NCBI GenBank assembly: GCA_021234155.1
Contig: JAJEKV010000020.1
Location: 3,025,275-3,089,274, forward strand
Reading direction: 5' to 3'
DNA length: 64,000 bases
DNA from: Isoetes taiwanensis
Lineage: Eukaryota > Streptophyta > Lycopodiopsida > Isoetales > Isoetaceae
Of this stretch, positions 1-41,455 are shown piece after piece. The position numbers and the translations under genes are program-made. Positions within the stretch are counted from its first letter, which is position 1, and the number at the start of each line of letters is the position of its first letter. The notes beneath the pieces are model-generated. The model ran no database searches. It saw only the letters and a program-made list of their open reading frames with translations, and was not told the DNA's origin.

Positions 1-77
1 GAAAAAAGGGATCGAGAATAGCAAACAAAGCAAAACGAGACAAAATGGCTGAGGACACAAAATGGAAATAACTGAAG

Positions 78-10391: not shown

Positions 10392-10393
10392 AC

Positions 10394-14223: not shown

Positions 14224-14237
14224 GCTCTGATACCAAG

Positions 14238-19206: not shown

Positions 19207-19869
19207 TTAATTTTTTGGGTGCCTTGTGTCACCCTGAAGGGAGGCAAAGATATTCCCTAAGTTCGCCGCGATCACAGTACTTTGAGCAGCCACTTTAGCA
19301 GCTATTTGTTCATTATTGCTTTCCTTATCAGGCTGCTGATTACTAGTTCCCTCACTAGAACCATCGTCCACTTTTGAATTGGACAAGTCTACGAGACTTT
19401 TGATTGCTGAAGATTTCAGGTTGCCATAAGGGCCTTTAGGAGATTTGGCAAGCACATGCATGAGGAATGGTTCAAGAAAGTCTTTCGCCTGCTCATCACT
19501 CACAAAACAGTGACATCTTCTAACACCCATAAGAGCCTCTCGGGCAATATAACCTCCAACATGAAGCTCCAAGCAGGTTGTATCAATTGGAGCAAATGCC
19601 GGGGGAAATCCATTTTTATTTAAGGGGCCCTTCTCCTTAGTTTGTAGCTCGTACTTGATTTCCCCACTTAGGAGGGGGTCCCGATCCTCATCCTCTTCTG
19701 ACTCATCCTGTTCTGACTGATCCTGATCCGTATGATAGAATATAGTTCTTAAGTCTGGATCATCTAGAAGAAAACATTCCCATGCACTGCTATTGTCACC
19801 CTTGGCCTTAGCAATATCATATTCCTCGTCTGACAGCATGGCTATCATAATAAAGATCACATGTGCCAT
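19207..19869 (-). CDS. Locus A, C-terminal exon (220 codons)
   Basis: An open minus-strand frame with an acidic stretch (EQDESEEDEDRD) and a compact middle (LELHVGGYIAREALMGVRRC), ending in a polar tail with KVAAQSTVIAANLGNIFA. It lies on the same strand directly downstream of the other locus A exons and ends next to the possible CACTA terminus. It could be the last exon of the DGQH gene or a separate small gene. I recognise no family. Confidence 0.45.
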   Translation of the reverse strand: MAHVIFIMIAMLSDEEYDIAKAKGDNSSAWECFLLDDPDLRTIFYHTDQDQSEQDESEEDEDRDPLLSGEIKYELQTKEKGPLNKNGFPPAFAPIDTTCLELHVGGYIAREALMGVRRCHCFVSDEQAKDFLEPFLMHVLAKSPKGPYGNLKSSAIKSLVDLSNSKVDDGSSEGTSNQQPDKESNNEQIAAKVAAQSTVIAANLGNIFASLQGDTRHPKN

Positions 19870-20049
19870 CTTCCGTTCTGTTCGCAGCTCATTATCCTTA
19901 ACATCATATATTAGGCATCCCTCCCTAATAACTTTGAGGCACTCGGATCATGAGCGTGAGAGATAGTGCATCTTGAGATGTGACTCACCAAGGACAAACG
20001 ATGACAATAGTGAAGGACCTCTCGGTTGTCAATCCTATCTGAGATGGTA

Positions 20050-20224
20050 AAGAAGTCATTTGTAGTCCTTCCGGTTCATGCCCATATCTCCTCTCCCACC
20101 CCTGCTGTCCAACACAAAGAGTGATATATTTTTAAGGCCAGAAGTTGATTCTGGCAAGAGACCTTTGTACCCAATGGAGACTGAATACTGGACAGCACTC
20201 AACGAAGGACATTCTATCCTTAGT
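20050..20224 (-). pseudogene. Locus A, coding continuation after exon 3
   Basis: The minus strand reads IECPSLSAVQYSVSIGYKGL then LPESTSGLKNISLFVLDS and GDMGMNRKDYK before a TGA. The corresponding place in locus B has a similar 'LRCPAF' start. Probably a further exon or frameshifted part of the same gene. The borders are uncertain. Confidence 0.4.
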
Positions 20225-20296
20225 GAAAGCACTCTTCTTGTATAAGACTTCCTTCTTTAAGCACTGGTCTAAAACCCAAATGGTCTCAAAGATCGC

Positions 20297-20696
20297 CTAG
20301 CCCCCTCGAGTCTTTCTCATCTCTGTCACATTCAAGTCAAAGATGCTTACATCAACAGGAGGCACCCTACCCATAGTATCTGGCAGCTTCCTTTGTGCAT
20401 AAGCGTCCCAGAATTCATTCCACTTTTGCCATACTGCCTCCTTACAAAAGACAATCTTATACGAGTCTGTTGGACCTGACCTGCTAGATGAGCTTTCAGA
20501 AGGATCTGCAATGTCATCACCACCTTTTTTCTTTGATTTTCTTGTAGTTTTCTTCTTCTCCTGTATAATTGTCTGCGACAGAGTCCGCTCCAGCAGCTTG
20601 AAAGCCTCAGACTTTGACCCGCCCTGTCTGGTGGGTAATGGGCAGCCATATTCCACCCACTGTTGACGGGCGTGGCGCAGTTGCTCCACGTATGGA
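20297..20696 (-). CDS. Locus A, exon 3 of the DGQH gene
   Basis: Starts after the acceptor with PYVEQLRHARQQWVEYG, followed by a Lys-rich stretch (EKKKTTRKSKKKGG), a Ser-rich linker and YKIVFCKEAVWQKWNEFWDA. Locus B has the same order: PYTDQRIHAR, a KKKKPIKK stretch, then YDLLLCNEKIWQKWTEIWAL. The conserved W-Q-K-W block suggests a structured domain. A TAG (20299-20297) ends the frame after MRKTRGG, but the next codons (AIFETIWVLDQCLKKEV) still look like protein, so the stop may be a mutation. Function unknown. Confidence 0.6.
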
Positions 20697-21119
20697 CTGC
20701 CAAAAGTACAGGCATTGAATCAGTATCAGAGACAAGAAACACGCCGGGCGCGATTTCAATAGAAAAGAACAACCTCAAAGCACGCCTGGCGTGAAATGAA
20801 TTAAATACCAATGCAATTCACGCCAGGCGTGCTTTCGAATCGGTTGAATTTACGCCAGGCGTGCTTTCGAATCGGTTGAATTCACGCCAGGCGTGATTTC
20901 AAATGAATTGAAATCACGCCAGGCGTGCTTTCAAATCAAATCAATTCACGCCAGGCGTGCTTTAACATTTCACGCCTGGCGTGAATTGGTTTGATTTGAA
21001 AGCACGCCTGGCGTGATTTGGTTTCATTACAGGAAATCACGCCTGGCGTGAATTGGTTTCATTTGAATGAACGCCTGGCGTGAATATGAAAGTGCTAACA
21101 TCCTAATACAGTTAGTTAC
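20697..21119 (-). other. Locus A, intron 2 (423 bp), occupied by a palindrome array
   Basis: Donor GTAACT (21119) and acceptor TTTTGGCAG (ending 20697) define a phase-2 intron: AG plus T makes Ser, followed by Pro-Tyr. The paralogous gene in locus B has the same phase and the same Ser-Pro-Tyr junction. About 80 percent of the intron is the CACGCCWGGCGTG array. Confidence 0.7.
20740..21082. repeat. Intronic array of 11 palindromes CACGCCWGGCGTG, mostly 32-bp spaced
   Basis: Sites start at 20740 (variant), 20781, 20819, 20851 (first base t), 20883, 20915, 20947, 20971, 21003, 21038 and 21070 (first base a). Intervals are 41, 38, 32, 32, 32, 32, 24, 32, 35 and 32. Sites 20819-20947 carry A as the central base with spacers like ctttcaaatcaaatcaatt; sites 20971-21070 carry T with the reverse-complement spacers. 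The array therefore also folds on itself around about 20965. Thirty-two bp is close to three helical turns, so all sites would face one side of the helix. A DNA-binding or recombination role is inferred. Confidence 0.9.
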
Positions 21120-22260
21120 CTTTTGTATAGAAATGTCTTCCCCATTTCATTCAAAGTTGCACTAATCTCAGCCAAATCTGCAGGTGAAGTATTGGCATCC
21201 AAGATACGACACCTCCTATACGTATAGTGATTGTAGAACGCATTTTGGCATGTTTGTTCTGCCTTCCTGATAAGGGCCTTCTGTGCCTCAACAGAATGCT
21301 GCCCGTCGATGACGACGAATTTAATGTTCTCCTTTAACATTATATCCTCGAAGTTCGTCCACTCAGCGGGCTTGTTCGAGATCATATCCCAAGGTAACAC
21401 ATCCGCTGGCATAGGCATTTGACCTGGATTACTAATCATGCTCTGAACAATCTCCATGTCATGTGCTGGATCATATCTTCTGCTAACATAAATGGAGCTT
21501 GGTGAACGGATGAGGGACTTCACATGGATCGCAAAAGTTTCCTTAAGACCCAATGGATAATGGTCAGAGTATTTATTCAGCTTGTTCAAGGCCTCTAGCT
21601 GCGCCACCCTGTCCTGTTCATTCTCAAAAATAGAAGCCTCCATGCCTTCGACAACTGCAGGTTGAACATCCTTCCCTAGATCTAGGACCCTCCTAGAAGC
21701 TTTCAAGTCAGCTAATTCCCTAGCTTGCTGCAAATAGTGACTTGCTGTCAGTTTAGTGAACATGCCTCTACGCACAGCTGTTACCCCTTGGCAAATAGAT
21801 ATTGGCGTAACTGCTACATTGGTTGGCCAACCATACTTAAAACATGTCTCACCGTTCACATCTGTCTTCATGAACGTATCCTTGTATGCAGTAGCTCTAC
21901 AATGAGTAAGTCTGAGCAGATCTTTCTTTTGCTTATGTGTAATCTCCAAGAGCAATTTGCAGTTGGTGTCATCCTCTTCCTCACAAGAGATTAGGATCCC
22001 TTGTTTGATCATCTTGTCTGCTTCCTTTTTCCTCGAGAAGAGAGTTAAGTCGAGCTTGCCATTTGTCTTGGCAAGGTCAACGTACTACTCGGCACCCTCA
22101 TCCATTTTCTCTTCAGGGAAGGCAGGGTCAGTGGTTGCTATAAGAATCGGCCCTTCATCATCTAAGGTGAGATCATATGGTACTGTATCTGGGTCGTCTA
22201 CCTTTGCTTTCTTGGCAGGATTAGAACCCGAATTATTAGGGGTTTTCTTCCTCTTGGGCA
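21120..22260 (-). CDS. Locus A, exon 2: DGQH-motif protein (possibly ParB/sulfiredoxin-like fold)
   Basis: About 380 codons on the minus strand. They start with a basic stretch (PKRKKTP, then PAKKAKVDD, a likely nuclear signal) and an acidic segment. The C-terminal part holds KFVVIDGQHSVEAQKAL near 21325-21275. A hydrophobic strand followed by DGQH and an Ala-rich helix resembles the signature of ParB/Srx-fold and DGQHR proteins of bacteria (family knowledge, no search run). One in-frame TAG (22087-22085) interrupts an otherwise open frame that reads on as YVDLAKTNGKLDL, so this copy is mutated or the stop is read through. Locus B carries a clear homologue (MPADLIPF, VIDGQHPVRAAQVL, CRVLSADTPPIELASIS against MPADVLPW, VIDGQHSVEAQKAL, CRILDANTSPADLAEIS). 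The exon ends AAAAG then GTAACT, phase 2. Confidence 0.6.
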
Positions 22261-22499
22261 CTGCATTGAACATTGCTATCTCCAACTGTCTAACACTGCT
22301 ATATTCTATAAAACAGAGCAAAATTATGTTCTACAAAATGGACAATCAGAGCATTAACTGATGGTAATACTTAAAATTCATGCAAAGCATAATAACTCAA
22401 ACTCATGCAAAGCATATTAACTGAAGGCAAGGAACTATCTCAAATTCATGCAAGCATAATACTCTCCACACAGTGTGTATTCTGTGGCAAATTAAATAC

Positions 22500-22635
22500 C
22501 TTGAATAGGGTTCTGTGTATTCTGTGTATTCTGATCAACGTCCTCTGAAGCTTGAGAAGTGCCAGGTTTTGAGATCCCTCTTCCACCGCTTCCTCTGCCC
22601 CATCCGCCTCGACCTCCTCTCGTTTTAGAAGACAT
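22500..22635 (-). CDS. Locus A, exon 1: Gly/Arg-rich N-terminus of the DGQH protein
   Basis: The minus-strand ATG at 22635-22633 opens a frame coding MSSKTRGGRGGWGRGSGGRG followed by a Ser/Thr/Gln-rich stretch. A donor (CAAG then GTATTT) ends the exon at 22500 in phase 1. The acceptor AATGCAG at 22261 continues in phase 1 into PKRKKTP, giving a sensible protein, so the intron is 22499-22261. The RGG-like N-terminus plus the following Lys/Arg cluster suggest nucleic-acid binding and nuclear import. The divergent 'VAWP' gene starts on the other strand about 0.5 kb away. Confidence 0.55.
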
Positions 22636-23148
22636 CTCCGGAGTCGCCTAGTAACAGAGTCGGAAGGTCGCTCGGATACGCGCTCGAGCTGCTCGAAGAA
22701 ATAGCTTTTTCTACCTGTACGAGAAATAGCGTTTTCTACCTGCACGAGGGAAATTTGAATCTCAAGAAAACACAAAATGCAGTTTCGAAATATTCTTGAC
22801 ACATATATAAAAATAATAATGACGAAGATTCACTTTCAAAAAAAAAAAAAGAACCCGTCCGCCGACTTCTTTCATTGAGTTTTTAAAAACCAATCTACCG
22901 TGTTCTTTCATTGATTACATTTATCCCGCCAAAATGTAATTAACCTAAGCTTTCTTGTAACTCGAATTTTTCCCGACCGCCTGCGTTTCCATAGCGCCTG
23001 TGATTTCGAGAACTCGAATCGGCTTCTCAAGTTCTGGTAAGCATCTCATTCCTATAGCTTGTATAATAATTTCCAGTAAAGGTGTCTGAATAGGCAATTG
23101 TCTGCAGTGTCGAAGATGAATGTTTCATGTTAACTACAAATCAGAAAA

Positions 23149-23351
23149 GGAAAGTAGGATTATGCAAGATCGACTCCATCGATCCGACTGCAAACTGTCA
23201 TGGAATTCCGCTCGGGGATAAGTATGTCCGAAAGTTCTGATGATTAATCTTTGCTATGGATGAAGCTTTACCTCGCAGACACCCCAAAGGGGATACGGTT
23301 GGAGAAAGTGTTGGAACATTTGTTGCATGGCCAAGAAACCGCTTAAAAAAG
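23149..23351 (+). pseudogene. Divergent gene next to locus A: CACTA-associated 'VAWP' domain fragment
   Basis: The plus strand reads CKIDSIDPTANCHGIPLGDK then YVRKF and two stops. After a frame change MDEALPRRHPKGDTVGESVG and TFVAWPRNRLKK follow, before a donor (GTATGT). The series 'DP...CHG.PLG...VRV ... GTFVAWPR' matches a domain commonly attached to plant CACTA transposon proteins (I recall it as DUF8039; not verified). The stop and frameshift show decay. It is transcribed away from the DGQH gene; locus B has the same arrangement at 39171-39420. Confidence 0.55.
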
Positions 23352-23579
23352 GTATGTAACATGTATTACATTGTAGAAATATAGAAGTAGACAAAATTTG
23401 TTGTATTCATTGGAAAAAGTTTACAATTGTATATAATCTGGAGAAACTGGATAAACCATACAAAATCCCGATTCTTTGTTTCAAGCCCGGGTCCATTGAG
23501 TAGCTGGGCTATCGATACTCCCATTTCCATTGCAGGGCATAGTGAATTCTTCTGGTAAAACCCCAGCAAAAACACCATG

Positions 23580-23700
23580 CTCTAGCTCCACCTCCCCCGC
23601 CTGCTTCACCTCCACCACCTGGTCCACCTCCTGCTCCTCCTCCTGCTCCATTGGTTGAGCCATCTCCATTGCATCATTATCTGCTTTGTGGTAGTGGTTA
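23580..23700 (+). pseudogene. Proline-rich segment, probably a later exon of the divergent gene
   Basis: The plus strand encodes LAPPPPPASPPPPGPPPAPP followed by APLVEPSPLHHYLLCGSG and a stop. Proline-rich tails are common after the 'VAWP' domain in such plant TE proteins. The 23780-24100 stretch that follows has no recognisable coding content. Confidence 0.35.
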
Positions 23701-24123
23701 GTGTTGGGTCATCCGGGGCATAGAGGCTAACCACTAAGAAACACAGCTCCTCATTTTGAATCTCGAAATGACAGATCACGAGATTCACTCTCGATCAATG
23801 CATGTACCGCATTCTCCGAGTGATTAGATAAGAGGGCCACCCTCCGATGCGATTGCAAGGGACTCGAGCCCGGATCTATCATTGCCCCGCACTCTGCTTT
23901 GCCATCATCATTACTTGATCCAAGTACTCCGGGGGTTGCAAGACCGGTGCTCCAGCCCGGTGGTGCTCGGCCGCGGTTCAACCGGGTTGGAGATTGGAGC
24001 CGAACACGAGCTGGGGTCGTGTGATTGCTGGCCCAAATGTAATTCCAATGCATCTTCGTCACCAACCGGGTGATTAATGTAACTTGGCATCTATCAATAG
24101 GAAGTGAGCGGAGTATCAGTATT

Positions 24124-24446
24124 CACGCCTGGCGTGTTATGTTTATTTATTTATAAACTTAGAAACTAAGAGACACGCCCGGCGTGTTTAGCTTAAAAGT
24201 TGAAACTAGGGATAAAATTGTTTGCACGCTCAGCGTGTAAACTGCTATATAGGAAAAACTATACACGCTCGGCGTGCATTCAGCAGAGAGAGAGAGAGAA
24301 AAAAAACCTGTACAGATAGATAAGTAAATAGATAAAGGCCAGGCAATTATCTACAGCGTGTAGATAATTGCCTGGCCTTTATCTATTTACTTATCTATCT
24401 GTACAATTTTTTTTTCTCCCTCTCTGCTGAATGCACGCCGAGCGTG
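24124..24446. repeat. Upstream array of A-type palindromes (about 50-bp spacing)
   Basis: Sites at 24124-24136 (CACGCCTGGCGTG), 24174-24186 (CACGCCCGGCGTG), 24225-24237 (CACGCTCAGCGTG), 24264-24276 (CACGCTCGGCGTG) and 24434-24446 (CACGCCGAGCGTG). The motif is that of the intronic array with centre variants. The last two sites are the outer ends of the large hairpin. Together with the intronic array it brackets the 5' exons and the divergent gene, about 3.0 kb. Confidence 0.85.
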
Positions 24447-24448
24447 TA
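24262..24448. repeat. 187-bp near-perfect inverted repeat (hairpin)
   Basis: Positions 24309-24355 and 24359-24405 are exact 47-bp reverse complements separated by GCG. Outside this the arms continue through an A-run/T-run and agagag/ctctct, then tgcattcagcagag / ctctgctgaatgca, and end in the palindromes at 24264 and 24434. Transcribed from either strand it would fold into a stem of about 90 bp. A foldback MITE or a small-RNA (MIR or hpRNA) precursor are both possible. Confidence 0.9.
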
Positions 24449-25020
24449 TTCATGTTGAAGGCTAAGGTTAGCATAAATATTATCTTTCAGATTTTTCTAA
24501 TGCTTTCTACTACACTTATTCATAATAGAAACTTGCATGCAATAGCATAATTAATTCAGGAAGAGAAACTCAAGAATTTACTCGAAACAAAAAGAAGCAG
24601 ATGAAGTTTATAAAAAACTATTCTGGTTTTCATAAACATCATCTGCTTCCTCTGCCTCGTGCAAATGCAAAAGCTTGTCTTCTTGGATTAAACCTGCCAT
24701 TGAGATGCAGCTTAAAACTAAATGAAAACTAACCTTGAGTTCTGAGTTCTGCTTTTGGATTTAATTCCGAGGCTTTCGGATTCGCAGACCTTAGTCCTCT
24801 GCTTCTGGTTTTAATTCCGATGTCCTCTGCTACAGATGCTACAGAACAAAAGGCGGAGTCTTTTAGTAAGTTAGGAATTGCCGAAACCAAACATCTAACA
24901 TTGCTGAAAATAAATCGGCTCACCAAGATTTTAGGAGGGCGGATCTAAACACAGCAGAAGCGCAACCGGCAAATCGTATGAAGGAAGGAAGAAAATGTAG
25001 GAACTTTGAGAGCGTGAAAT
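24449..25020 (-). other. Putative minus-strand transcript region between promoter and hairpin
   Basis: Downstream of the TATA box near 25027 the minus strand has no convincing start codon or long frame. A donor-like CTTG/GTGAGCC occurs near 24930. A short tandem repeat (ctgcttttggatttaattccga / ctgcttctggttttaattccga) lies at about 24748-24830. The transcript, if made, may be non-coding and would run into the 187-bp hairpin. Confidence 0.35.
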
Positions 25021-25023
25021 GGA

Positions 25024-25093
25024 TTTATATAGGCATAATTAGAAATAAGTTAGCGTGAATAATTGATTGCTTGAATTAACACGCCTGGCGTAC
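25024..25093 (-). promoter_or_regulatory. TATA promoter with an A-type palindrome box
   Basis: On the minus strand the box CACGCC(W)GGCGTG-like sequence (plus 25080-25093, CACGCCTGGCGTAC) lies about 50 bp upstream of TATATAAATCC (plus about 25023-25032). The block ggatttatatagg ... aattagaaat ... agcgtgaataattgattgc matches 31721-31790 upstream of the acidic-protein gene almost base for base. The conserved block supports real promoter use; regulation by the DGQH system is inference. Confidence 0.6.
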
Positions 25094-25094
25094 G

Positions 25095-25512
25095 GTCTTC
25101 CCGCCAGACATGACATGTATATGATGTATATGGTATATATGGAGAATATTGCATTTTATGCAATAAATTCTCACGACATTTTATTCCATTTATTGCATTC
25201 GAAAAAATAGAATTTAGAAATTTTATATAGGCTAAATTATAAATGATTTTAAAGGCAAAATTATCAAGGCTAAAAAATGACTTGTAGGGTTGGGGACTTG
25301 TTTTAGGTCGTATAGGAAAATTTCCCTATGGTTACTGTGATGAATCAGAGATTTTTCATGTGGTTGATTTATAGTGTTCCGGAGACTTTGTTGAGACAAA
25401 TGCAGAGACAAAACTTTAGAGAAAACAGCAGACGAACAGGAGACAAAATAATTGGAGAAAACAGTTGGATTTAATTCAAATAATTTTATGTACAGAAAAA
25501 CTGTTCGAAGAA
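25095..25512. other. Non-coding flank left of the copia insertion
   Basis: AT-rich. 25125-25185 resembles 31810-31850 (aataaattctcacg), extending the promoter duplication. The end (25430-25512) resembles the sequence right of the copia element (gaagaaaactttatg ... ttatatgtacag), so the insertion site lies in a short duplicated 3'-region. No gene seen. Confidence 0.4.
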
Positions 25513-26111
25513 TGTTGAAATCTGGAATCATGTGATATTTGTAAGTTTGAATGGTTGTTGAAGATTTACAGATATGCATTCCATGGTTAAACAGGTTATA
25601 CAATTAAGCTAAGGTATAAGGGGATTAGGGACCATATTTTGGCTCCCCTTATTCAAGCTGTGTTGTGAAGAATCTATGGTTATAGTTATGTGATTGAATT
25701 TGAATATTCAAAGAAAGATGAGGTTCAATGGTTCGGGTAGCCGAATTTTTAACCCAGGCCTGTGGGATATATGGGTGTACACAGTTTTCACAGAAGGCAA
25801 GTCTATCTGGCTCCATAACCGCCGGATCGACTGTATATAGAATGGAAAACTTGATATAATATATACACTGAGATTGATGAAGGCGGTAATGCAGATTATA
25901 CAGTGTTCTTGAGCTATCAGCAGGAAACAAGTCAAAGCCCGAGCTACCTTAACATATTGAATGACTATTGTTGATATTTAATGGTTAAGTTGTATTCTAG
26001 AAATTTATTGAAGGTGAATTTGCTTAAGGGGGAAATTAATCTATGACTTTAAATTGAAGTGCTTAAGGCATAGATTAAAGTTAAGTCATTAGATCTGCTA
26101 AAAAAACCACA
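25513..26111 (+). repeat. 5' LTR of the copia element
   Basis: Starts TGTTGAAATCTGG, ends CTAAAAAAACCACA. It contains TATA-like 'ctgtatatagaatgg' near 25830. It is 599 bp, the same length as the 3' LTR. Confidence 0.95.
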
Positions 26112-26125
26112 ATGGTATCAGAGCT
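26112..26125 (+). other. Primer binding site (initiator tRNA-Met)
   Basis: ATGGTATCAGAGCT directly follows the LTR; TGGTATCAGAGC is the canonical complement of the tRNA-Met(i) 3' end in plant copia elements. Confidence 0.92.
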
Positions 26126-26130
26126 CAGGT

Positions 26131-26895
26131 TTGGTAATCATGACAACAAGGTTTGGAGCAAATTTGCTGAATTCAATTGAAATCTTCAAAGGGGATGGAG
26201 GATTTCAAATCTGGAAGGAGGGCATTAGAAGCGTGCTTGAATTTGAAAAACTTTGGTATCTAATTAATGGCAGTTCAGTTGTGAGTGCAGGGGCATCCAG
26301 CTCAGGTGGTTCAAGTCCTGCTGCTAGTTCTAATACTCAATCTGAAGAAGGTTCAGCAACTGCAAGGGTGTCTCAGGCAGGGGGAACACCTGCTAGTGCT
26401 AGTGCTGAAGGTGAAGAAGCTAAAATTATGGAAGCTCAAGCCATAATTATGTGCAAAGTAGGAACTCCTTTAAAGCTGAAGCTTCGAGGCATGAAGCCTA
26501 AGGAAATGTGGGAGTATCTGGTTAAACATTATGAACAGAAGAGTTCCTCACAGATAGATATGTTAGAGAAGGAGTTAAGGAAGATGAAGCTTGTTGAAAA
26601 AGATAACCTAACTAACTTCTTAGAAAGGTTTGATTCTATTATTGCAGATCTTGAGGGAGCTGGCAATATCTTGAGTGAGCAGTATCAAATCTTGGCCTTA
26701 GCAAGGGCAGTTTCCCATAATAGTCATTTGGCAACCTTGCTCAGAAATGTAGCCAGTTCTAAGGAACATGCCATTAGAATGATGAATTTGAACAATCCAG
26801 TGTTGTACAAGATGAGGCAGAACAATCTGCAGAAGTATTGTACACTGGTAAGGCTAAAAAAGTTGGTTTTAAAAAATTTTCAAAAGGACAAATAG
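26131..26895 (+). CDS. Copia gag (capsid part)
   Basis: A frame of 254 codons beginning MVIMTTRFGANLLNSIEIFK, followed by a typical capsid core (WKEGIRSVLEFEKLWYLING, a Ser/Ala-rich loop, then EYLVKHYEQKSSSQIDMLEK and FLERFDSIIADLEGAG). This is the UBN2/gag pattern of Ty1/copia elements. The capsid packages the element RNA in virus-like particles in the cytoplasm. The frame ends early; the zinc knuckles continue in another frame after about 26800, so a one-base indel probably split an originally continuous gag-pol frame. Confidence 0.88.
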   Translation: MVIMTTRFGANLLNSIEIFKGDGGFQIWKEGIRSVLEFEKLWYLINGSSVVSAGASSSGGSSPAASSNTQSEEGSATARVSQAGGTPASASAEGEEAKIMEAQAIIMCKVGTPLKLKLRGMKPKEMWEYLVKHYEQKSSSQIDMLEKELRKMKLVEKDNLTNFLERFDSIIADLEGAGNILSEQYQILALARAVSHNSHLATLLRNVASSKEHAIRMMNLNNPVLYKMRQNNLQKYCTLVRLKKLVLKNFQKDK

Positions 26896-31026: not shown

Positions 31027-31213
31027 AAGAACATTGTTTGAAGAAAACTTTATGAAAACTGTTTGATTTCATTCATAAAAGTTATATGTACAGCTGCCCG
31101 AAGGCTTGTAAGCAGGTGCCCGAAGGCTTTTCACAAAATTACAGGAAAAAAATGCCCGGAGGCGTGTCCAAAGCTTCTGTAGAAAAAAAAAAGGGGGCCG
31201 CCCGGGATCTGCA

Positions 31214-31667
31214 TCATTGATCTTCCACGTCTGCAACAAAGAAGAAAGAAAGGTGTTAGAAAAGAAAGAAAGGTGAAAGAAATAAAATAAAAGCAGACAT
31301 GCAAACCTGGTTTATCTCTCAACCATTCTAAAAATTGGTCGAATTGTCGATTTTCTTCCGAATCTTCTTCCTCCGCCTCCTCCTCCTCCTCCTCCTCCTC
31401 CTCCTCCGACTCTTCAGAGATTTTATTCTCTGTTTCAGGGTCAAGCCAACCCTGAAGCAGAGCGGTCATGTGTTCTTGAGAGGACATCTCCTCCTCTTCC
31501 TCCAACTCCTCCTCTTCCTCCTCTTCATCCTCTGAATCGGAATCAGAGGAGAATTGGGAAAGAAAATCTATGAAGGGGGGGAATTGAGCGGGTTCTTCAA
31601 CCCGACGTCTCTTTGAAGAGACCTCGGGTTCTTCATGAAGCTCGAGCGCTGAGGCTGAACGCTTCAT
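31214..31667 (-). CDS. Small acidic nuclear-type protein, two exons (about 125 aa)
   Basis: The minus-strand ATG is at 31667. Exon 1 (31667-31307) encodes MKRSASALELHEEPEVSSKR with a KRRR cluster, FIDFLSQFSSDSDSED, two long Glu runs and FDQFLEWLRDKP. A donor (CCAG then GTTTGC, 31306) and acceptor (TTTGTTGCAG, ending 31231) join in phase 1 to exon 2, DVEDQ and TGA (31214). A TATA box lies about 55 bp upstream of the ATG. The basic cluster plus strongly acidic body resembles chromatin-associated or activation-type proteins, but the Glu runs are low complexity and I assign no function. Its promoter shares the A-type palindrome. Confidence 0.6.
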
Positions 31668-31718
31668 GACGGGCAGAAAAAAAAAATTTGGACAGAATGG
31701 AGGTCTTGAGAGTGTGAA

Positions 31719-31790
31719 CCGGATTTATATAGGGTTAATTAGAAATGAGCGTGAATAATTGATTGCCTCAAATAACACGCCAGGCGTACG
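31719..31790 (-). promoter_or_regulatory. Promoter of the acidic-protein gene with an A-type palindrome box
   Basis: On the minus strand CGTACGCCTGGCGTG (plus 31776-31790, CACGCCAGGCGTACG) lies about 50 bp upstream of TATATAAATCC (plus 31721-31731), and the ATG follows about 55 bp further on. The block is nearly the same as 25024-25093. The palindrome half-sites match the arrays in locus A. Confidence 0.65.
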
Positions 31791-32143
31791 AAATTCCTGC
31801 CCTCTATATCATCTAGGGTATATTATTATATGGATAATAAATTCTCACGTCTATCAGTTATATATGTCTTTTCGTAATCATGTATCCAAATTTTCGATAA
31901 TTAAAATTTGGATATATTTATATAAATGTCATTTCCTTGTTGTTGCCACAAAAATTCTTGTTTTAAATGATTTCGTTTACACCCATTGTTATTATTATAT
32001 TAAACCTATTTCCAAGGAATTTCTTGCTTTTAAAAAATTGGATTTACCTCTACATATTCCATAAATGTACGTACTTTTTTTTATCTTATATGGTGTAATA
32101 ATTTTTTCCTACTCATTGACTAAAAAGGGTGCAATTTGCCTAG
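31791..32143 (+). other. AT-rich sequence before the DUF7869-like gene
   Basis: No domain is visible. The end (taaaaagggtgcaatttgcctag) is a plausible intron 3' end, so an upstream exon of the next gene may lie in or before this stretch. Confidence 0.35.
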
Positions 32144-33953
32144 GTCAATGGTGCCTCTCCAACTCAAGATGGTGTGCAACATATTGAAAAGAGCAATATC
32201 AAGGAAAAACCAACTCCTAGCAAGAATGTTGAAGAAAAACAATTAATCCTCTATAGTAGGGTGCAATGGAGGAACAAGAAGGTGAGAATCATGCACAAGT
32301 GCAACAAGGAAATAGTAGGCCAAGGAGTCATTGTGCTAGCAGATCCTGGTCAAGCTGTTAATGATGAAAGGCTAGGGGACAATATTGGTATTGCAATTTT
32401 GATGTTGGAAGACAACTGGAAAGGTAAAGGTTTGGGTGACAAGGAATGTTTTGGTTGTGTCAAGCAATTGGAGGTTCCTTGCATCATGGCATGGCCTATA
32501 AGTAGTGTTCAATTTGTGGAGGATTATATTTTTCCAGAGCCTGAGGTTGTTGGGGACAATGATTGTCTTGATATTGATCCATTGGCAGTTGGAACTCTAA
32601 ACCTAGGCAAAAGGGGAGAAGTATCAGTTGCCAGACATTATCCTAGCAAAAGAGCCAAGTTGATTAGTGACACCAAACGTGAGACAATGGTGAAGGTTAG
32701 GGGCTCAGATTGTTGTTGGAGTGCTTGTATGCAATTCTTTACAATAGAACAATTGGTGGAAGCAAGAGCCACTTTTCAAGAGTACACTGTTGATGAGAGG
32801 AGGACCTACATGTACACAATCTTCGAGCATGCACTTCAGGATGAAAGAAACCCAAACAGAAAAAGATGCCCTTTGCTAGGCAAATGGATATGTGCAAAAG
32901 CATGGCAGACTATCCATGCAATTCCAACTTCTTCATGGCATAATTGGCAAAAAAAAAAGGCAGAGGGGAACAGGATTGCTTTACATGGAAATAATGGTTT
33001 GTTGAGACCAACAGCTAGGACCTTGGCTGCCAGGGAGATATTTGAAAAATATATTGATTTCAATGCAGAGTCTATGCCACACAAAAGCAGAAGGGATGAA
33101 AAGGGAAGAGCAGTTGTTGAGAAAAGGTTGCCATCACATTGTACTCAAAAGAGTATTTTGGAAGAAGTGAATTCCCTACTTCGAGAATTGGGAATTCTTC
33201 CAATATCCCAACCTAGCTTTAGTAGGTTATGGAAGAAGCATTTCAATCATGTCACCATAGCAACTTCAAACAACTTTGCAAAGTGCAATTTATGTGCTAA
33301 GTTGAAGGAGACTCTTGATAAGACTGTGCAACCTAGTCAAAGGGCTAGGATAAGGGAGCATATGAAGGACCATATGACTGACCAACTATCATGTAGATCA
33401 TGTTATTGGATGTGGAGGACTTTATCTGCATTGGAACCCAATAACTATTTATACATTATACATGACAAGATGGACCAGCAAAAGACTTGTCTTCCACAAT
33501 TCAAGTACATACCAAAGTCATGTGGAAGATCATACCCTTTACAGATCTCAATGACTAGGGCAATCTTGCATGGGCAGACTCAAACCTACTATGGCCATTT
33601 TAGTTTGGAATTGTGGAGTGATGGTCCAGATTTTCATATTGAGAGTATCATGAGGTGTTTGAGAAACTATGAAAATGGATATGATGGTCACCTCCAGGAC
33701 CCTACAGCTAGCCAAGCACTACATAGAGCATTGTTAGATGGAAACCCTAACAATATTGAAAAGTTCAGCAAGGCAAGGTTTAGGAAGCATGGGTCTAATG
33801 AACATGTTGGAGCTTCAACTTCACGTGCTAGACCTCAAGATCTACCCAAAAGGTTTCTCTTGCAACTTGATAATTGTGCTGGCCAAAATAAGAACAGGTG
33901 GATGTTTTCTTTCCTATCCTACTTAACAGCTGTGGGGATATTTAGGGTTTCTT
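32144..33953 (+). pseudogene. Transposase-like gene with DNCAGQNKNRW motif (DUF7869-type), 5' part
   Basis: Open for about 600 codons after an acceptor-like tttgcctAG (32142-32143); no good ATG is near, so an upstream exon is likely. After a variable N-terminal part come a Cys-containing segment (CNLCAKLKETLDK, CRSCYWMWRTLSA), a conserved core (YIIHDKMDQQKTCLPQF) and LLQLDNCAGQNKNRWMFSFL. From family knowledge, D-N-C-x-G-Q-N-K-N-R followed by G-H-T-H-E-D-V-D marks a widespread eukaryotic TE-derived domain with an RNase-H-like look (I recall it as DUF7869; unverified). The frame breaks at about 33945-33955, just before GHTHEDVDALF. Confidence 0.7.
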
Positions 33954-34727
33954 ATGCCCGGGCATACCCATGAGGATGTGGATGCATTATTTGGCAAATA
34001 TAGTTGTATACTGAAGCAGCAGACAGTGACCAACTTTCCTAGGCTAATGGAAATCTTGCATGAATGCACTACTCCAAACCCTATAGCTTCTCTCATAGAA
34101 GAAGTGCCCAATTGGAAGAGCTTTGTGGATGGTTATACATTGGACCTTGAAGGTCATTCCAGGCCTCTGCAGTTCACTTTTTGGGTGAGAGATGGGATTC
34201 CAATCTTCCAATGGAAGATGAGACCTTTAGAGGATGAGTGGAGAGGAGGGGAGGAAATATGGCGTAGAGATGAGAATGGCAAGCCTATGGTACCTCCAGG
34301 TCAACCAAAAGCTCTAAAACCTACTGAAGAAGTGAAGCAATTGGGATTGACTAAGGAAGGAATCCAGGACTATATAAAGCATTGGCAAACCAATCCAGAT
34401 GACACCAACCGTGCCTTGGTGGCTTACTGGAAGAAGGTGATTAACCTGTTGGGGGAGATAGACATATCCTCAGATGAATTGAAAGAAGGGTGGTTGCCTA
34501 AAACTAGGTGGAAGACCTTAGCAGGTGCTGAGGATGTTGATGACACTGTAAGTAGCATTCGCAAGCAATATGCTCCTCCTCCTTCTGACAAACACTATGT
34601 TGGTCCTAAGAACAATAGGCCAAAGTTTCTAGGTATGGATGCTTATGAACCTTCCACTGACTTGGAATGCCACCAATTTGTGGTAGTAAAGCCAGCAGAT
34701 TTAGATACATATCCAGTGTGGTTATGA
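33954..34727 (+). pseudogene. DUF7869-type gene, middle part after a frameshift
   Basis: Begins MPGHTHEDVDALFGKYSCIL, the second conserved block of the same domain, in a frame shifted relative to the upstream part. A one-base indel near 33950 explains the break. It continues with PLQFTFWVRDGIPIFQWKMR and LGLTKEGIQDYIKHW and ends at a stop created by the 79-bp duplication. Confidence 0.75.
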
Positions 34728-34800
34728 ACCTTCCACTGACTTGGAATGCCACCAATTTGTGGTAGTAAAGCCAGCAGATTTAGATACATATCCAGTGTGG
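34643..34800 (+). repeat. Exact 79-bp tandem duplication inside the DUF7869-type gene
   Basis: The sequence from ttatgaaccttccactg to ccagtgtgg occurs twice in direct succession (from 34643 and from 34722). Seventy-nine is not a multiple of three, so it shifts the frame and introduces TGA at 34725-34727. The copies look identical, so the event is recent. Confidence 0.9.
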
Positions 34801-35103
34801 TTGGGGTTCACTATTTCTGATATTTGCAAAGAAGAAGGTAATATTAACTTCAACCATGTGCGGGTGGAATGGTGGTGTCCAGTGCATCAGTTGACCAATG
34901 TATCGGATAAAGAAAGGTACTCAGATTGTTGGACAAAGAGATGGAGGAGAAATCCGAGTGATCCTGATATTTGGCTAGACTATGAAAGTGTTTTGTACTC
35001 ATGGACTCCAAACACTATTCCAGCTAGAAATGCGAGAATTACAATACCTCGGGATGTCAGGAAGAAGGCTATGATATCATTGGGGGTACTTGAAGAAAGT
35101 TGA
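34801..35103 (+). pseudogene. DUF7869-type gene, 3' part
   Basis: Continues the same protein after the duplication: GFTISDICKEEGNINFNHVR, VEWWCPVHQL and WLDYESVLYSWTPNTIP, stopping at TGA 35101-35103. The preserved codon sense on both sides of the duplication shows the gene was open until recently. Confidence 0.7.
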
Positions 35104-35526
35104 ATAACTATGTAAATTTTTGTTATCACGTTTTTATGATATGGTGCTATATTGTGAAATATTGACTATTTTGTAAATAACATGATATTACGTTTTCATA
35201 ATTTTTAGGTGAAATGTGAATTTGAATATGCTACTAAAAACATGCAATATGAAATTTGTCCCAAAATTAAGACATAATCCCAATTTAATTGAATGATGGT
35301 TTTCTTGATTTTTCTCGGAGCCTGCTTCCTGATTTTTCTCAGAGTCTACTTCCTGATTTTTCTCAGAGTGGTGTTCCTGACTTTTTTCAGAGTCATATTC
35401 CTGAATTCGTCATGGGAACGATGAAACATGATCAGACAACTCTGATAGTAACACCAAGGATGATAAAACTGGGTGAGCTGTTTGAGCGAATTTCCTGAAA
35501 TGATGCTAGTTACCAATGTTAATGAG
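35104..35526 (+). other. AT-rich flank with a 24-bp tandem repeat (35303-35405)
   Basis: No gene is recognised. A four-copy degenerate repeat (ttcctgatttttctcagag) encodes a repeated PDFSQS phrase in one frame; I regard it as a minisatellite. Confidence 0.5.
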
Positions 35527-35550
35527 GTTCTCGACTCGCGAGTTGAGAAC
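35527..35550. repeat. Isolated B-type palindrome in the 3' flank of locus B
   Basis: GTTCTCGACTCGCGAGTTGA plus GAAC, a 24-bp palindrome with one mismatched pair. It has the same core (CTCGACTCGCGAG) as the arrays at 37.8-38.1 and 41.3-41.4 kb. Confidence 0.8.
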
Positions 35551-35812
35551 CAGGGCATCCAATGAAAATATGGTAAGTGTGCTCATCTCTCTCTTATTCT
35601 TTCCAGCACTTGCTCCGCCGCCTAGTCTCCCATGCCTATCAAAAGATCCTCTGGGTTATCTTGGTTGTTGCCCACCTGCTCCTCTGTTTTTTCATCCTCA
35701 ATTGTTGACTCATTCTTTTTATTCACAAAGTGGTCCATGTATGACTTTATCGGGTCAACAAGGGCTTTGTCACCAACTATTGATATTGGCTTCATTCCAT
35801 ATAATATAGCCC
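35551..35812 (+). other. No recognisable gene
   Basis: Short chance frames only; pyrimidine-rich patches. Confidence 0.3.
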
Positions 35813-37733
35813 CTTAGGAGAAAACTCGGTTCATGTACCACTCACACACGATCTGATCATCTTCGACCAAACTCGTAACAAATTACTTGATAACCTGGGA
35901 CATATTGATATCTTGTGGATAGCACTTGTGCTGCCATCCGTGCTTACCTTGTCAAAAGATAACACATCCTCCATGGATTTCCCGCCCTTCCAGAGATCCA
36001 GATTCTCGTTCGAGGCGATGAACTTGTCCATATATGGGAATCCGCGAGACAGTAAAACCAATATAATGTTGGCAAAACTTGATATCTTTGAAAGACCGAC
36101 TCTGCACTCACATTCTAACTCATATATGGAATAAACGATTCTCTTGTGGAAGTTAATATCTGCTGCCCATTGCAAACTACTGTCGTCTGATTGCCAGACA
36201 TGTAGAAGATAAGGAAACTGAAATTATACAGTTCTGTCATATCCAAATAGGTCTTGTACCACTGGTCTAGATCAGCCTTCTCATAGAATAAAGTCGGATT
36301 TTCAATCATATTCATGAAAAATAAGGACACAGACCATCTGCAAGTTTCTCTGGATCCCTCCCCAGTGCCCGGTACTATGGATCCTATAACTCCTAATGAC
36401 CAGGTACTTTGCCACTCCTTAAACATATCTTACTATACACCTTATTGACATTGGCATTTACCGAGACGAAATGCCCTTCACCTCGAATGGTAGGTGTTAT
36501 CGAATTATGAGCCCTTTTCGAACAAATAAGTGTTTTTTCAATTTGAAGAATCTCTGAAGAATCCTTGAAAATGGATATCCAATGGCCCATATATGCATGT
36601 GTATTCGGCGATGATCTCAGAATAACCAAACTAGACTTTGCTCCAGTTTTATCATCGAAGGCCGGGCACCGAAGCTTGACTCGTTGACGAAGTGATCCTC
36701 TCGGTCCCCCTCCTGAGTGGCCATCCCATGTAATGGTTGGGCAGCGAGGGGGCTGCGTCCGACGGAAGTTAGATTGGTCGATTTCACTCTTCGAAATGTA
36801 CACAGGTGTCGAACCCCCCATTTCCGCCTAAGATACGTGACCGATTAGGTCATTAGATCACATCACATTGTTTGCTTTCCCCTCTCCTTAGCCAGTTCAG
36901 TTCGGGACTTGTATTGCATGCAGTTAGTTGCCAGAGGCTAGTTCCAATCCACCAAACCATTGTGACCTAATGCCACCAAGTACGGTGGAGAGCTCGAATC
37001 TACTTTGAAAGGCACGATGCCGAAACCCAGCTTGCATTTGAGAAGTACTTGAGCACGCTCTGGAAACAGTTATGTTTTGACACTTCCATACAGTTTGATG
37101 TTGATGTATGGTTGGCACAATCGTTTTAGCTCCTTCATGACCATCCTCAAGCTTGGCCTTTTCCTTGAAGTACTCAAAATCCTGGCTCTCGTTGCAGGCA
37201 ACGTTGTAGAATTCTGCGATGTCGTTCTCTAATGCATGCGTCCTCTTTAGCACCATGGCATAGTCCTTTTCATTTTGCATCTTTGAGCTTCTTATTTTCC
37301 TCAGCAATATTGAGCCATCCAGTATTTTGCTTTGCAAATCTAGCGTTCTCTTTTCCTCAAGCCGTGTATCCTCTTCATGAATTTTTGTCAAAGCGTTTTG
37401 GACCTGGTCTCTGTGGCAACTCTTTATTACTGTCCTTCAGAATACCCCTTTGCACAAAGCCCAGATCTCAGTCCACTTTTGCCAGATTTTTTCATTGCAC
37501 AGTAACAGGTCGTATTGGTCTGATAGCGATTCCCTACCTTTTTTATAGGTTTTTTTTTCTTTCCACCTTCATCATCGGCTTCATCGTCTTGGTGGTGCTC
37601 TGTAAGTACAAACCTGCACAGCCTCTCAAAAATCTTCCATTTTTTGGAAGGCGCCTTGTTTCCTCTGGGCTGTTGCAGACATCTCAATGCCTTCCATTGC
37701 TACCTTGCATGTATTCTTTGGTCAGTATAGGGG
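35813..37733 (-). pseudogene. Locus B, 3' half of a DGQH-gene paralogue (exon 3 and downstream)
   Basis: The acceptor CTGCAG (37739-37734) is followed by PYTDQRIHAR, TAG, QWKALRCLQQPRGNK, ERLC, a KKKKPIKK stretch and, in a shifted frame, YDLLLCNEKIWQKWTEIWAL. This matches locus A exon 3 in order and content. Downstream come a coiled-coil-like part (EKRTLDLQSKILDGSILLRK, 37391-37150), 'LRCPAFDDKTGAKSSLVILR' near 36660 and further fragments to about 35.8 kb. Stops and frame changes show it is broken. The 5' half lies inverted at 39.7-40.95 kb. Confidence 0.6.
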
Positions 37734-37762
37734 CTGCAGATGTAAGATTCAAGTTAGTTGAG

Positions 37763-38160
37763 TGATGCTATGATGCCTCTGGGTTATATAAGACTAGACA
37801 TGAGGACTTTCTCGTCTCACGAGTCGAGAAAGTGCCCTCTAGGGTATAAAAGACTAGATATGAGGAGTCAAAAAAGTGCCCTCTGGATTATAAAACACTA
37901 CATGAGGACTTTCTCAACTCACGAGTCAAGAATGTGCCCTCTAGGTTATAAAATACTAGACATGAGGACTTTCTCGATTCGCGAGTCGAGATAGTATCCT
38001 TTGGGTTATAAATGACTAGACATGAGGACTTTCGCGACTCGCGAGTCAAGCCCCTTGAGGTTCGAAGGAATTGAACTTGGACACTTTCTCGACGTAGCGA
38101 AAGTGCCCTCTGAGTTATAAAAGACTAGACATGAGGACCTTCTTAACTCATGGGTAGATA
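37763..38160. repeat. Locus B, left array of B-type palindromes, 60-bp unit
   Basis: The unit reads catgaggactttctcgac ... tcgagaaagtgccctct ... ggttataaaagactaga. Palindromes TCTCGACTCGCGAGTCGAGA (with variants) lie at 37809-37830, 37911-37932, 37971-37992 and 38031-38052, with a half-deleted copy near 37866 and degenerate copies near 38095 and 38140. It sits directly upstream of the exon 3 acceptor, where locus A has its array. The unit is the reverse complement of the unit at 41.3-41.46 kb. Confidence 0.9.
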
Positions 38161-39170: not shown

Positions 39171-39420
39171 CTAAATGACATCCAGACCTCGATATGGCAC
39201 AATATTTTTGTAGTGCTTTCCAAGTGCATTTGCTTCCGCGGTCGGCTTCATCAACAAGGCATCGGGTTGAATGACTTGAATCAGCGCGATTCGTGTACAT
39301 CCTTTCTCCATGACAGTGCAGTGAAGAAGGCCCATGGACTCGAGCTCATCCCCCACTACTATCTTATTTCCGCAGGCCATCGAGCAAATCGTCTGAATAT
39401 ACCACAAGCCTATGTCAAAA
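39171..39420 (-). pseudogene. Divergent gene of locus B: CACTA-associated 'VAWP'-type domain
   Basis: The minus strand reads GNKIVVGDELESMGLLHCTV, MEKGCTRIALIQVIQPDALL and MKPTAEANALGKHYKNIVPY. The pattern 'H..(P)LG.GC.R(V/I)A...VI.PDALL.KPT.EAN.LG...' corresponds to the same plant CACTA-associated domain as at 23149-23351; the terminal VAWPR has become IVPYR. It is transcribed away from the DGQH 5' half, as in locus A. Confidence 0.55.
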
Positions 39421-39699
39421 CAACCCTACCCAAATGCAAGCCTGAATCATGCACAAATGCAAGCTCATAGGTTTGTGTGCATTTGAAGCGCCTGTGCCTA
39501 TTGTTAGTGGAAGGTCTAGTGGGAGTCGAATGTGCGATCTTTGAGGCTTCATGATACCTCCTGCTCCGGTCAAATTGAGGCCCGCTCTTCCATCAATATT
39601 TTAAAATATGCGTTTAGGCAGGCTAAGGATGCCCGTGATGTACCCAGCAACCTCTTGCGTGCGTTCAATGATTGCAGATATTATTTGAAAATTTAAGAT

Positions 39700-40949
39700 A
39701 ACTTCCTTTGTGTGCAGTCCTCAACTCACAAAATCCTCACGGCAGAAGAGCACTTCTGGAGGTGCAACTTCTAGCACCAAGCGTCGAACGTCGGAGTATG
39801 TCGGCTCCATCAAATAAGTGCTCTTCCAAAAAAGATCGTTCATCGGTCAGCGCAAAGAAGAGAAGGCTTGCAAAGCCAGGTAATATCTCAATTATGATGT
39901 CTTTCTAGAGCGGGTCCAATTAACATCTGTTTTTATTAGGTTTTTCTTCCTTTCTTCGTCATAGAAGGGCCGCAGACACAACAGCTTGATGAGACCTCGA
40001 TGGATTGTTGGTGGTATAAGGAAGTGACAATGTCCAGAAAAGAGAAAGATCGATAAGAAAGGTTCCACAAAACAAGAAGGGCCGATTTGTGTTGTCTATC
40101 GTTGCTCCAGATGATTAGCATCTGACCTTATACATTGAAGATATGTCGAAGGGCAAGTTCTACCATACCAAAAAATTATCGGTGCTGAATTACTCCTCTT
40201 CTTCCATGAGCAAAGCCAAGGGAACGGACAAAAAGGTTGCACATGTGAATTGCTAGAGTCTGGGATGGAAAGATCTGGAAGGCATGAAAGAGGAATGCAC
40301 TCTAACTTCTAGGGAGCTAGGCATGGAAATCTCCAGGGGCCTTCACATCCAATGTGTTGAAGAGTATAACACACTCTGCGGTCAACTAAGTCGTGGTTCA
40401 AAGTGAGGACAAGAAACAGAGTGAAACATGGATGATGAGTCAAAGGATGAGGAGGACATTGACTCCCAGTTTTTGGACCCAAACAAGAAAATGAAGCTGA
40501 TGCAGAGGGACGCTCAGAAAATTGAAAGATTGGCCCAGGACTATCCATTAGAGATCGATCACAAAATGAAAATTGATATAAGAAGACTCAAGGTATGCAC
40601 TGGCAATGCCGTCTTGTTTAACCACAAAGAGTTCAATCCAACCCATATATTGGAGATCCTGAATTTAATGATACATCATCCTATATATGGTAGATCCGAT
40701 GCCAGCCGACTTGATTCCTTTTAAGAAGAAAACTAGTGAATTATTCAGTTGGAGCACGGAAGAGAAACTGAAGAGTAAAGATGTGAGGTTCTAGGTTATA
40801 GATGGCCAGCATCCAGTGAGAGCAGCACAGGTGTTGCAGACGGAGAAGGATGTCCCCTGCAGAGTGTTGTCAGCGGACACTCCACCCATTGAGCTAGCCA
40901 GCATCAGTCACTGCCAGAATACCATCGCTGCAAGTGAAAGCTACATCAG
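39700..40949 (+). pseudogene. Locus B, 5' half of a DGQH-gene paralogue (inverted relative to its 3' half)
   Basis: Plus-strand pieces: SSKKDRSSVSAKKRRLAKPG before a donor (CCAG then GTAATATC, near 39879); a stretch near 39965-40050; MKEECTLTSRELGMEISRGL (near 40283); ERLAQDYPLEIDHKMKIDIR and LFNHKEFNPTHILEILNLMI (40530-40670). After a frame change come MPADLIPFKKKTSELFSW and, past one TAG (40793-40795), VIDGQHPVRAAQVLQTEKDV and CRVLSADTPPIELASIS. Each block aligns with locus A exon 2 in order. It ends ATCAG then GTACTG at 40949/40950 in phase 2, the same splice position as locus A. In-frame stops and one frameshift mark it as a pseudogene. Confidence 0.65.
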
Positions 40950-41324
40950 GTACTGAATATTACCATCTCCGAAATTTAGAACTTAAAGTGGTCCTCATGT
41001 GCAGTCCTTTATAACCAGTGATGACTTTATCATCCTCTAGCTGCTTCTAAACTATAGAAATAGTGGCGATTGTTTCCTATTTTTCCAACATTTTTATAGA
41101 AAAGAATTTAGTAGAATTGGATGTTTTACCATAAAATTGAGGTTTTTACTGTAAAATCTTCATTAATTTGGCGAATATATTATAATTGGGATGCAATGTT
41201 ATCAAATTTTGGCGATTTTATGAAGTATGCATCCCAGTAAACCATCGAATCCATATTTTAAGAAATGGTAAAATATAGCAACTTTACGAAGTTTCACACC
41301 TTAAAGTCATCACTGTTTATAACC
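40950..41324 (+). other. 5' part of the split intron of locus B
   Basis: Follows the donor GTACTG. AT-rich, with no coding content, leading into the right palindrome array. Its natural acceptor is now at 37734 on the opposite strand. Confidence 0.55.
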
Positions 41325-41455
41325 CAGAGGGCACTTTCTCGACTCGCGAGTCGAGAAGATCCTCATGTCTAGTCGTTTATAACCCGAAGGGCACTTTCTT
41401 GACTCGTGAGTTGAGAAGATCTTCATATCTAGTCATTTATAATACGGAGGGCACG
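41325..41455. repeat. Locus B, right array of B-type palindromes
   Basis: Two palindromes (41336-41357, perfect over 22 bp; 41396-41417 with variants) lie in 60-bp units reading tttataacccagagggcac ... gatcctcatgtctagtcg. This is the reverse complement of the unit in the left array. A third partial unit ends at about 41455, where similarity stops abruptly. Confidence 0.9.

Follow-up and report, generated by a model that had tools for sequence, protein, structure and literature searches.

Why should genes in a plant genome carry regular arrays of short palindromes in their introns, and does each array belong to the protein encoded beside it? The question is raised by a 64,000-bp stretch of the Isoetes taiwanensis genome (contig JAJEKV010000020.1, positions 3,025,275 to 3,089,274; below, the window), in which two related loci, A and B, each combine a coding region for a protein with a DGQH motif and palindromes of a sequence of its own. 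The preliminary description of the window proposed that each protein, or its partner, recognises its own palindrome, so that protein and array diverge together. Searching the 1.66-Gb genome that contains the window, we find that the two loci belong to two homologous multicopy families, that each family has its own palindromic motif, arrayed in noncoding parts of both of its genes, and that array type follows protein type. Family A is a DNA transposon family with terminal inverted repeats (TIRs) and a DUF7869 domain, and family B is its homologue.

The loci compared were picked by protein match and not by motif. On the A side they comprised the 30 best matches to the main lineage (A1), 13 from the side of a third lineage (A2) and six others taken by choice; on the B side 20 were chosen from 150-odd listed matches, and the cross-check spanned whole loci of 0.9–4 kb. 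All 20 B loci contain the B palindrome when up to 4 mismatches are allowed (97 sites, or 102 at up to 5 mismatches, with 1–8 per locus), and none of the 20 contains the A motif at up to 1 mismatch. On the A side the A motif is present in 42 of 48 loci (42 of 49 counting L068), the other six misses being A2-side loci with a different motif, and B-like sites are absent from the A loci except L037, which has them at 160–300, 1.2–1.3 kb from its exon end. Fisher's p for the 48 A-side loci against the B loci is 2.8e-12, a nominal value, the copies being related. Loci L001–L004, which were found by palindrome and lie in three places, are all within A elements.

The intron that follows the DGQH exon was also compared. 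The exon end was located in 29 of the 30 A1 loci, and 28 of these 29 have the exact A motif in the following intron; the exception, L035, has a single degenerate site and then unrelated sequence. A site like CGCCNGGCG (up to 1 mismatch) is found in 11 of the 13 A2 introns, the exceptions being L053, with one poor longer match, and L058, which is decayed and has no site. Among the other A-side loci, L065, L066, L067, L070 and L071 have arrays. Family members without arrays, which the preliminary description had named as evidence against its proposal, amount to only a few copies (L035, L053, L058 and L068).

The homology of the A and B protein blocks, noticed from the window alone, holds up: the two DGQH exons are 35–37% identical over about 100 amino acids (best E 8e-13) and the WQKW blocks 44% identical over 25 amino acids (E 4e-5). 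A1 and A2 exons are 24–28% identical to a B exon, and A2 exons are 54–57% identical to A1. Exon matches in the genome number at least 126 for A (124 scored of 5543 candidates), at least 120 for A2, A1 copies included (108 scored of 5069 candidates), and at least 162 for B (150 scored of 2016 candidates). Purifying selection acts on the DGQH exon, where the ratio of nonsynonymous to synonymous substitution rates is 0.17–0.29 in five B pairs and 0.36–0.79 in the four A1 pairs tried; both A1–A2 pairs were saturated. Ten of ten B exons fetched whole, having been chosen for long open frames, contain one. The A2 repeat unit, GAATACACGCCAGGCGCGAATTG, is an imperfect palindrome with a core common to the A motif, to which it is related though asymmetric. 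These comparisons support the expected joint divergence of protein and palindrome between the two families and, more mildly, in the third lineage.

What kind of unit carries the arrays is best seen at locus A. This locus forms the left portion of a larger element, to which a DUF7869 gene at 32.1–35.1 kb belongs too. Its parts in the window are as follows.

19223–35301, no strand assigned: locus A, a TIR DNA transposon copy with its left end lost at about 19223, its right TIR intact and a copia interruption (from blastn to the G000:C1027 copy and a TIR scan)
19223–19947, minus strand: later exon of gene 1 (LELHVGGYIAREAL block), truncated
20297–20693, minus strand: gene 1 exon 3 (PYVEQLRHAR ... 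WQKW)
20694–21117, minus strand: gene 1 intron 2-3, site of the array of A palindromes (11, of which 8 are exact)
21118–22273, minus strand: gene 1 exon 2 with the DGQH motif, with one in-frame TAG in the window copy; limits by eye
22504–22634, minus strand: putative exon 1 of gene 1 (MSSKTRGG...), 3′ limit by eye
23259–23351, plus strand: gene 2 exon with the VAWP motif
24124–24446, plus strand: five A sites within the gene 2 intron, counted at up to 2 mismatches
25512–31026, plus strand: Ty1/copia retrotransposon inside element A, from its open reading frames (ORFs) and the breaks in the A/C1027 alignment at 25512 and 31027
32147–35103, plus strand: gene 2 DUF7869 (transposase-like) region, frameshifted
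35271–35301, minus strand: right TIR of element A, the exact reverse complement of AACCATCATTCAATTAAATTGGGATTATGTC

The family A element carries two divergent genes. Gene 1 runs from the DGQH exon through the array intron and further exons to an NIF-phosphatase domain, and gene 2 has a VAWP/TNP1-like exon and a DUF7869 transposase-like domain. The counterpart of the VAWP exon in L045 matches Pfam TNP1 (PF03017) with an E of 9e-4, below the cut-off; DUF7869 (PF25273) is matched in gene 2 of copy C1018 with an E of 8.5e-24, and the seven best homologues of the DUF7869 protein are 31–69% identical across the aligned part. A copy that aligns with locus A lies at C1027:2637690–2651403; it is 13,714 bases long with a 31-bp TIR at each end (1 mismatch each) and is flanked on both sides by TATT, a putative 4-bp target-site duplication seen once, in the only copy with both ends read. 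One TIR end each was found in C1029 and C1018 (left) and in the window and C1049 (right), the other ends not being found in the stretches read. TIRs were examined in family A only, and there the suggestion of a selfish module is borne out by multicopy elements with TIRs. In the A/C1027 alignment the flanks of element A around the copia insertion overlap by 5 bp. The reverse transcriptase stretch of the copia element is at most 46% identical to its relatives among the 120 matches listed of 713. We also note a short tandem duplication at 34640–34800 in the DUF7869 gene, and, within the gene 2 intron array, an inverted repeat at 24289–24425 with 67-nt arms that are 96% complementary and 3 nt apart.

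The array of locus A is regular. Its intron (about 20694–21117) holds 11 sites of CACGCCNGGCGTG at up to 1 mismatch, 8 of them exact, with 32 bp in 6 of the 10 intervals, and contains 8 perfect palindromes of at least 13 bp against a mean of 0.24 and at most 3 in 1000 dinucleotide shuffles. The same interval is the commonest in A1 generally (115 times; 254 sites in 30 copies, with 1–15 sites per intron) and would correspond to about three helical turns. In family B, 39 of 82 intervals measure 59–62 bp. Genome-wide, CACGCCWGGCGTG occurs 1771 times against once for the reversed control, and TCTCGACTCGCGAGTCGAGA 3786 times against none for its control. The intron array of L054 holds a 38-bp perfect palindrome, which suggests inverted duplication as a step of array growth.

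The arrays were at first placed in the same single intron of each gene, but other noncoding parts of gene 1 hold them too, as does gene 2. The 14 kb scanned at C1027 have 15 sites at up to 2 mismatches, all outside the blocks assigned as exons. Some precede the NIF ORF, and the others lie in the introns between exons 2 and 3 and between exons 1 and 2 (taking exon 2 to start near KRKK) or in a noncoding part of gene 2. The B sites lie after the DGQH exon, before the NIF exon and in the gene 2 intron, and the arrays of the two families are therefore at matching positions. The second and third of these B positions come from L064, where two sites stand between the NIF exon (PF03031, E 0.002, below the cut-off) and the next coding block, and from L092, where nine sites at up to 5 mismatches follow the gene 2 exon ending ...TLGEAAGSVIQWPKELLGEE. 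By BLASTP, A2 and B gene 2 exons give a short, weak match, with an E of 0.005 in one comparison. The arrays flank the divergent promoter.

Locus B is a decayed, rearranged copy of the second family, with the same gene order as A, and its recognisable parts are these.

35529–35548, no strand assigned: isolated B site with 1 mismatch, immediately right of element A
35831–37765, minus strand: exon 3 of B gene 1 (SPYTDQRIHARQ ... WQKW), with remnants of later coding sequence; WQKW block by tblastn, with the acceptor region, the rest by eye against L064
37810–38051, minus strand: B palindromes ahead of exon 3, 4 sites with 1–3 mismatches
39215–39385, minus strand: remnant of the first exon of B gene 2, recognised by eye from L092:425-724, where the motif is QWP
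40432–40951, plus strand: locus B DGQH exon remnant with stops
41337–41416, plus strand: B palindromes 3′ of the DGQH exon, one exact and one with 3 mismatches

The locus is split, with the part from exon 3 to the 3′ end on the minus strand (about 35.8–38.2 kb) and the DGQH exon, with stops, on the plus strand (about 40.4–40.95 kb). Several statements that had been made of both loci are true of A alone. The protein blocks are in order at A and broken at B, where parts lie on opposite strands and contain stops; the VAWP gene is present at A, with a literal VAWP once (23322), and B retains a decayed stretch at 39.2–39.4 kb on the minus strand, with a by-eye match to L092 (QWP). Regularly spaced perfect palindromes are likewise a property of A (8 exact of 11). 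Among the seven B sites in 35.3–42.3 kb one, at 41337, is a perfect 20-mer and six have 1–3 mismatches, and the perfect palindromes of at least 10 bp in the two B arrays (2 against a shuffle mean of 0.9, maximum 6, and 2 against a mean of 0.34, maximum 3) do not clearly exceed the numbers in shuffled sequence; regular spacing and mostly perfect B motifs are seen solely in copies outside the window. A KDZ transposase was considered for locus B and dropped, the sole Pfam match being sub-threshold (20.2 bits against a cut-off of 26.6; ORF in window 36927–37436).

Between subfamilies almost only the motif is kept, and the spacers are not. When the introns of L066 and L067, whose protein is 75% identical, were cut into 13-base words, 80 of 369 and 73 of 339 words respectively recurred in at least half of the 29 A1 introns (up to 1 mismatch, either strand). 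The recurring words form stretches on palindrome sites, one L066 stretch excepted, and the median word is found again in none of the A1 introns. In L065, which is closer to A1, 90 of 269 words recur (median 0.10) and some spacer is common too. This word test replaced an earlier core-versus-spacer measure that was biased, the sites having been picked by their core; between A1 and A1b that measure had given 0.75–0.97 for the core except its centre (0.35), 0.40–0.75 for the adjacent four bases and 0.23–0.40 further out. The B sites have decayed chiefly through transitions at CpG, with 0.064 changes per position compared with 0.018 at other positions (149 sites), a hint that B arrays may be methylated when silent.

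The DGQH exon was also compared with known protein families. In alignment A1, 9 of 15 members match Pfam DndB (PF14072; best E 0.0024, below the cut-off), and DUF6742 outscores it (13 of 15 members, best E 8.7e-4); none of the six B exons scanned matches DndB. A ParB-like partition protein, PHROG 1033, is matched by 8 of the 16 members of the combined A and B alignment A3 (best E 0.036, below the cut-off), in the B member shown at residues 329–359, which include DGQH, and the best PADLOC match, PD-T4-4_A (E 0.0025), was obtained for 2 of 16. Searches with the DGQH exon gave no match in NCBIfam, none in the PDB at E<=1, and no homologue at E <= 0.001 among 3459 candidates from 5.8 billion proteins. 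An AlphaFold2 model of exon 2 (mean predicted local distance difference test score 36.5) was too poor for a fold search, and a DNA-methyltransferase reading of the HVGGY block was dropped, Pfam and NCBIfam giving it no support. The DGQHR domain has been placed in the ParB/Srx fold (PMC4619093), and DndB is described as a ParB-like, ATP- and GTP-binding protein that acts as an ATP-dependent repressor of the dnd operon (PMC12704722). Besides these weak profile matches, the likeness to these proteins consists of the (I/V)(I/V)DGQH motif and of a conserved N further on, judged by eye, such as DGQHR domains have (PMC4619093). The differences are that the gene's host here is a eukaryotic transposon, that the scores are below cut-offs, and that the position of the R of GxxR (P motif) is occupied not by R but by S (QHS) in all 16 rows of alignment A3, and by P in the window B copy.

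What might the arrays do? The reading that we prefer, and to which we give an even chance, is that an element-made protein, most likely gene 1 DGQH (or else the TNP1-like exon of gene 2), binds the palindrome of its own family as a dimer and thereby counteracts silencing or raises expression. Binding would coat the introns around the shared promoter in copies of that family only, and the coating would oppose host silencing or increase expression; family specificity would let families avoid cross-activation, and new motifs would spread through an array by repeat turnover, with the protein following. In favour of this reading are the array type that follows protein type, the motif kept while spacers change, sites outside the assigned exons and at matching positions in the two families, the substitution ratios of the DGQH exon, the CpG decay of B sites and the VANC precedent discussed below.

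Several observations weigh against this reading. A linked protein and array would co-diverge by descent without interaction, and the clearly distinct motif families are only two, plus one intermediate. L068, 70% identical to A1, is without an array in about 600 bp. The CpG bias of decay is weak in A1 (0.073 against 0.054; 386 sites), and the folding of the introns as RNA, given below, belongs with these points. Among eight loci found by the B palindrome, a DGQH gene is present only in L064, the other seven (L005–L008 and L061–L063) matching B gene loci in little beyond the arrays, so that these data connect only some of the 3786 B palindromes to a gene copy. L005, L006, L007 and L062 have a common terminus, AAGTCGTATTTAATTAAAGTGGG, most of which is also present in L008, and L061 and L062 have 526 bp in common at 87%. 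L005–L008 first gave the impression of a different element, which was replaced once the inner part of this terminus was found to resemble the A TIR (AATTAAATTGGGA); because of that resemblance they are probably B-type element ends. At L008:465-603 two B-type termini face one another across about 100 bp, which gives the impression of two elements lying end to end.

A bolder form of the binding reading, possible though doubtful, follows the DndB and ParB resemblance: a protein of the ParB/DndB superfamily may have been taken up by a eukaryotic transposon, with the palindrome arrays as parS-like loading sites from which a bound dimer would spread and keep chromatin open, each family having a private protein-palindrome code.

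Autoregulation appears unlikely. Here the DGQH protein would be a repressor acting on palindromes near the divergent promoter and limiting expression and copy number, as DndB does on its own operon. It draws on the weak resemblance of the DGQH region to DndB (PF14072) and ParB-like PHROG 1033, on the ATP-dependent repression of the dnd operon by DndB (PMC12704722) and on the divergent promoter flanked by arrays. However, the resemblance is below cut-offs, DUF6742 scores better and the six B exons lack DndB matches, and many sites over several introns exceed the needs of a simple operator.

Next in likelihood, and also improbable, comes a function in RNA, where hairpins formed in the introns by inverted palindromes would help splicing or supply small-RNA production. 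Each of the 11 introns folded is much more stable than its shuffled versions (z-scores of -9 to -23, 40 shuffles each), and the window array is inverted with complementary spacers. But such folding is partly automatic for any palindrome array, L065 (spacers one-way), L048, L073 and L076 reach only -9 to -10.5, and between subfamilies it is the primary sequence of the motif that is kept and not the spacers. A shade less probable again is that the palindromes are internal sites for the gene 2 product (TNP1-like/VAWP and DUF7869) in transposition, comparable to the subterminal repeats for TnpA in En/Spm. The least likely reading has the arrays as functionless satellites that multiply through unequal exchange and gene conversion while travelling with each family, which would suit the range of A1 array size (1 to 15 sites per copy) and the conserved look that concerted repeats can take on, but not the motif kept while spacers diverge between subfamilies, the matching array positions despite 24–28% exon identity, or the dyad symmetry of each family's motif.

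Elsewhere in the window, three direct repeats of about 3.83 kb with the same ORFs occupy 7231–15900, with palindromes at 7246, 11075 and 14919, and a 50-bp perfect palindrome lies at 15915–15964, near the end of the third repeat. The first 6000 bp (1–6000) have a very strong AT skew (0.32 to 0.52), a strand-asymmetric composition, and a (TTC)n tract of about 200 bp is present at 43216–43420.

How do these elements compare with known systems? VANDALs are Mutator-like elements, and En/Spm has subterminal binding sites for TnpA. The preliminary description knew of no described system of this type; the VANDAL/VANC system of Arabidopsis in fact has the same logic (PMC5735166, PMC10398659). In VANDAL21, motif arrays lie in introns of VANC21 and VANB21 and upstream of VANA21, turn over rapidly and are family-specific targets (PMC5735166, PMC10398659); VANC proteins contain the domains DUF1985 and DUF287, and the site recognised by VANC21 is YAGTATTAY (PMC5735166). 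VANDAL21 and VANDAL6 with their VANC proteins share with the present elements a fast-diverging element-encoded protein, tandemly repeated short motifs within introns and elsewhere in noncoding sequence, a motif that differs between related families, and variable array copy number (PMC5735166, PMC10398659). Unpublished work on the co-evolution of VANC structure and target is mentioned in PMC12859917. The differences are that ours is a DUF7869 element with a DGQH protein and palindromes, whereas VANC is a DUF1985/DUF287 protein, and that loss of DNA methylation has been shown for VANC, whereas for the present elements an anti-silencing effect is proposed. Among the exons scanned, neither DUF1985 nor DUF287 gave a Pfam match at E<=1; DUF7869 and NIF were matched instead.

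En/Spm TnpA offers another parallel to the proposed role: the element encodes it and is activated by it, with demethylation (PMC10398659), and gene 2 here has a TNP1-like exon; unlike in En/Spm (CACTA), the sites are intronic here, the transposase-like domain is DUF7869, and the termini begin with AACCATCAT and not CACTA. DUF7869 (PF25273) is also carried by other proteins, for example in Riccia sorocarpa. Our literature search, which covered mostly the top matches listed and had most subscription papers outside its scope, turned up no publication dealing with DUF7869 transposons or with palindrome arrays of DGQH genes.

If the proposed binding is true, these families would be an independent, unrelated case, outside VANDAL elements, of an element protein that co-diverges with motif arrays. 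With more than 100 matches per family and graded divergence, the proposal that host silencing drives private codes would become testable by comparison; new sequence-specific tools, and a ParB-like protein active within a eukaryotic transposon, would be possible further gains. By analogy, the elements would work like VANDAL/VANC but belong to no VANDAL/VANC family: the novelty lies in the type of element, in a site that is palindromic and in a protein weakly resembling the ParB/DndB superfamily, and the principle is the one known from VANDAL/VANC.

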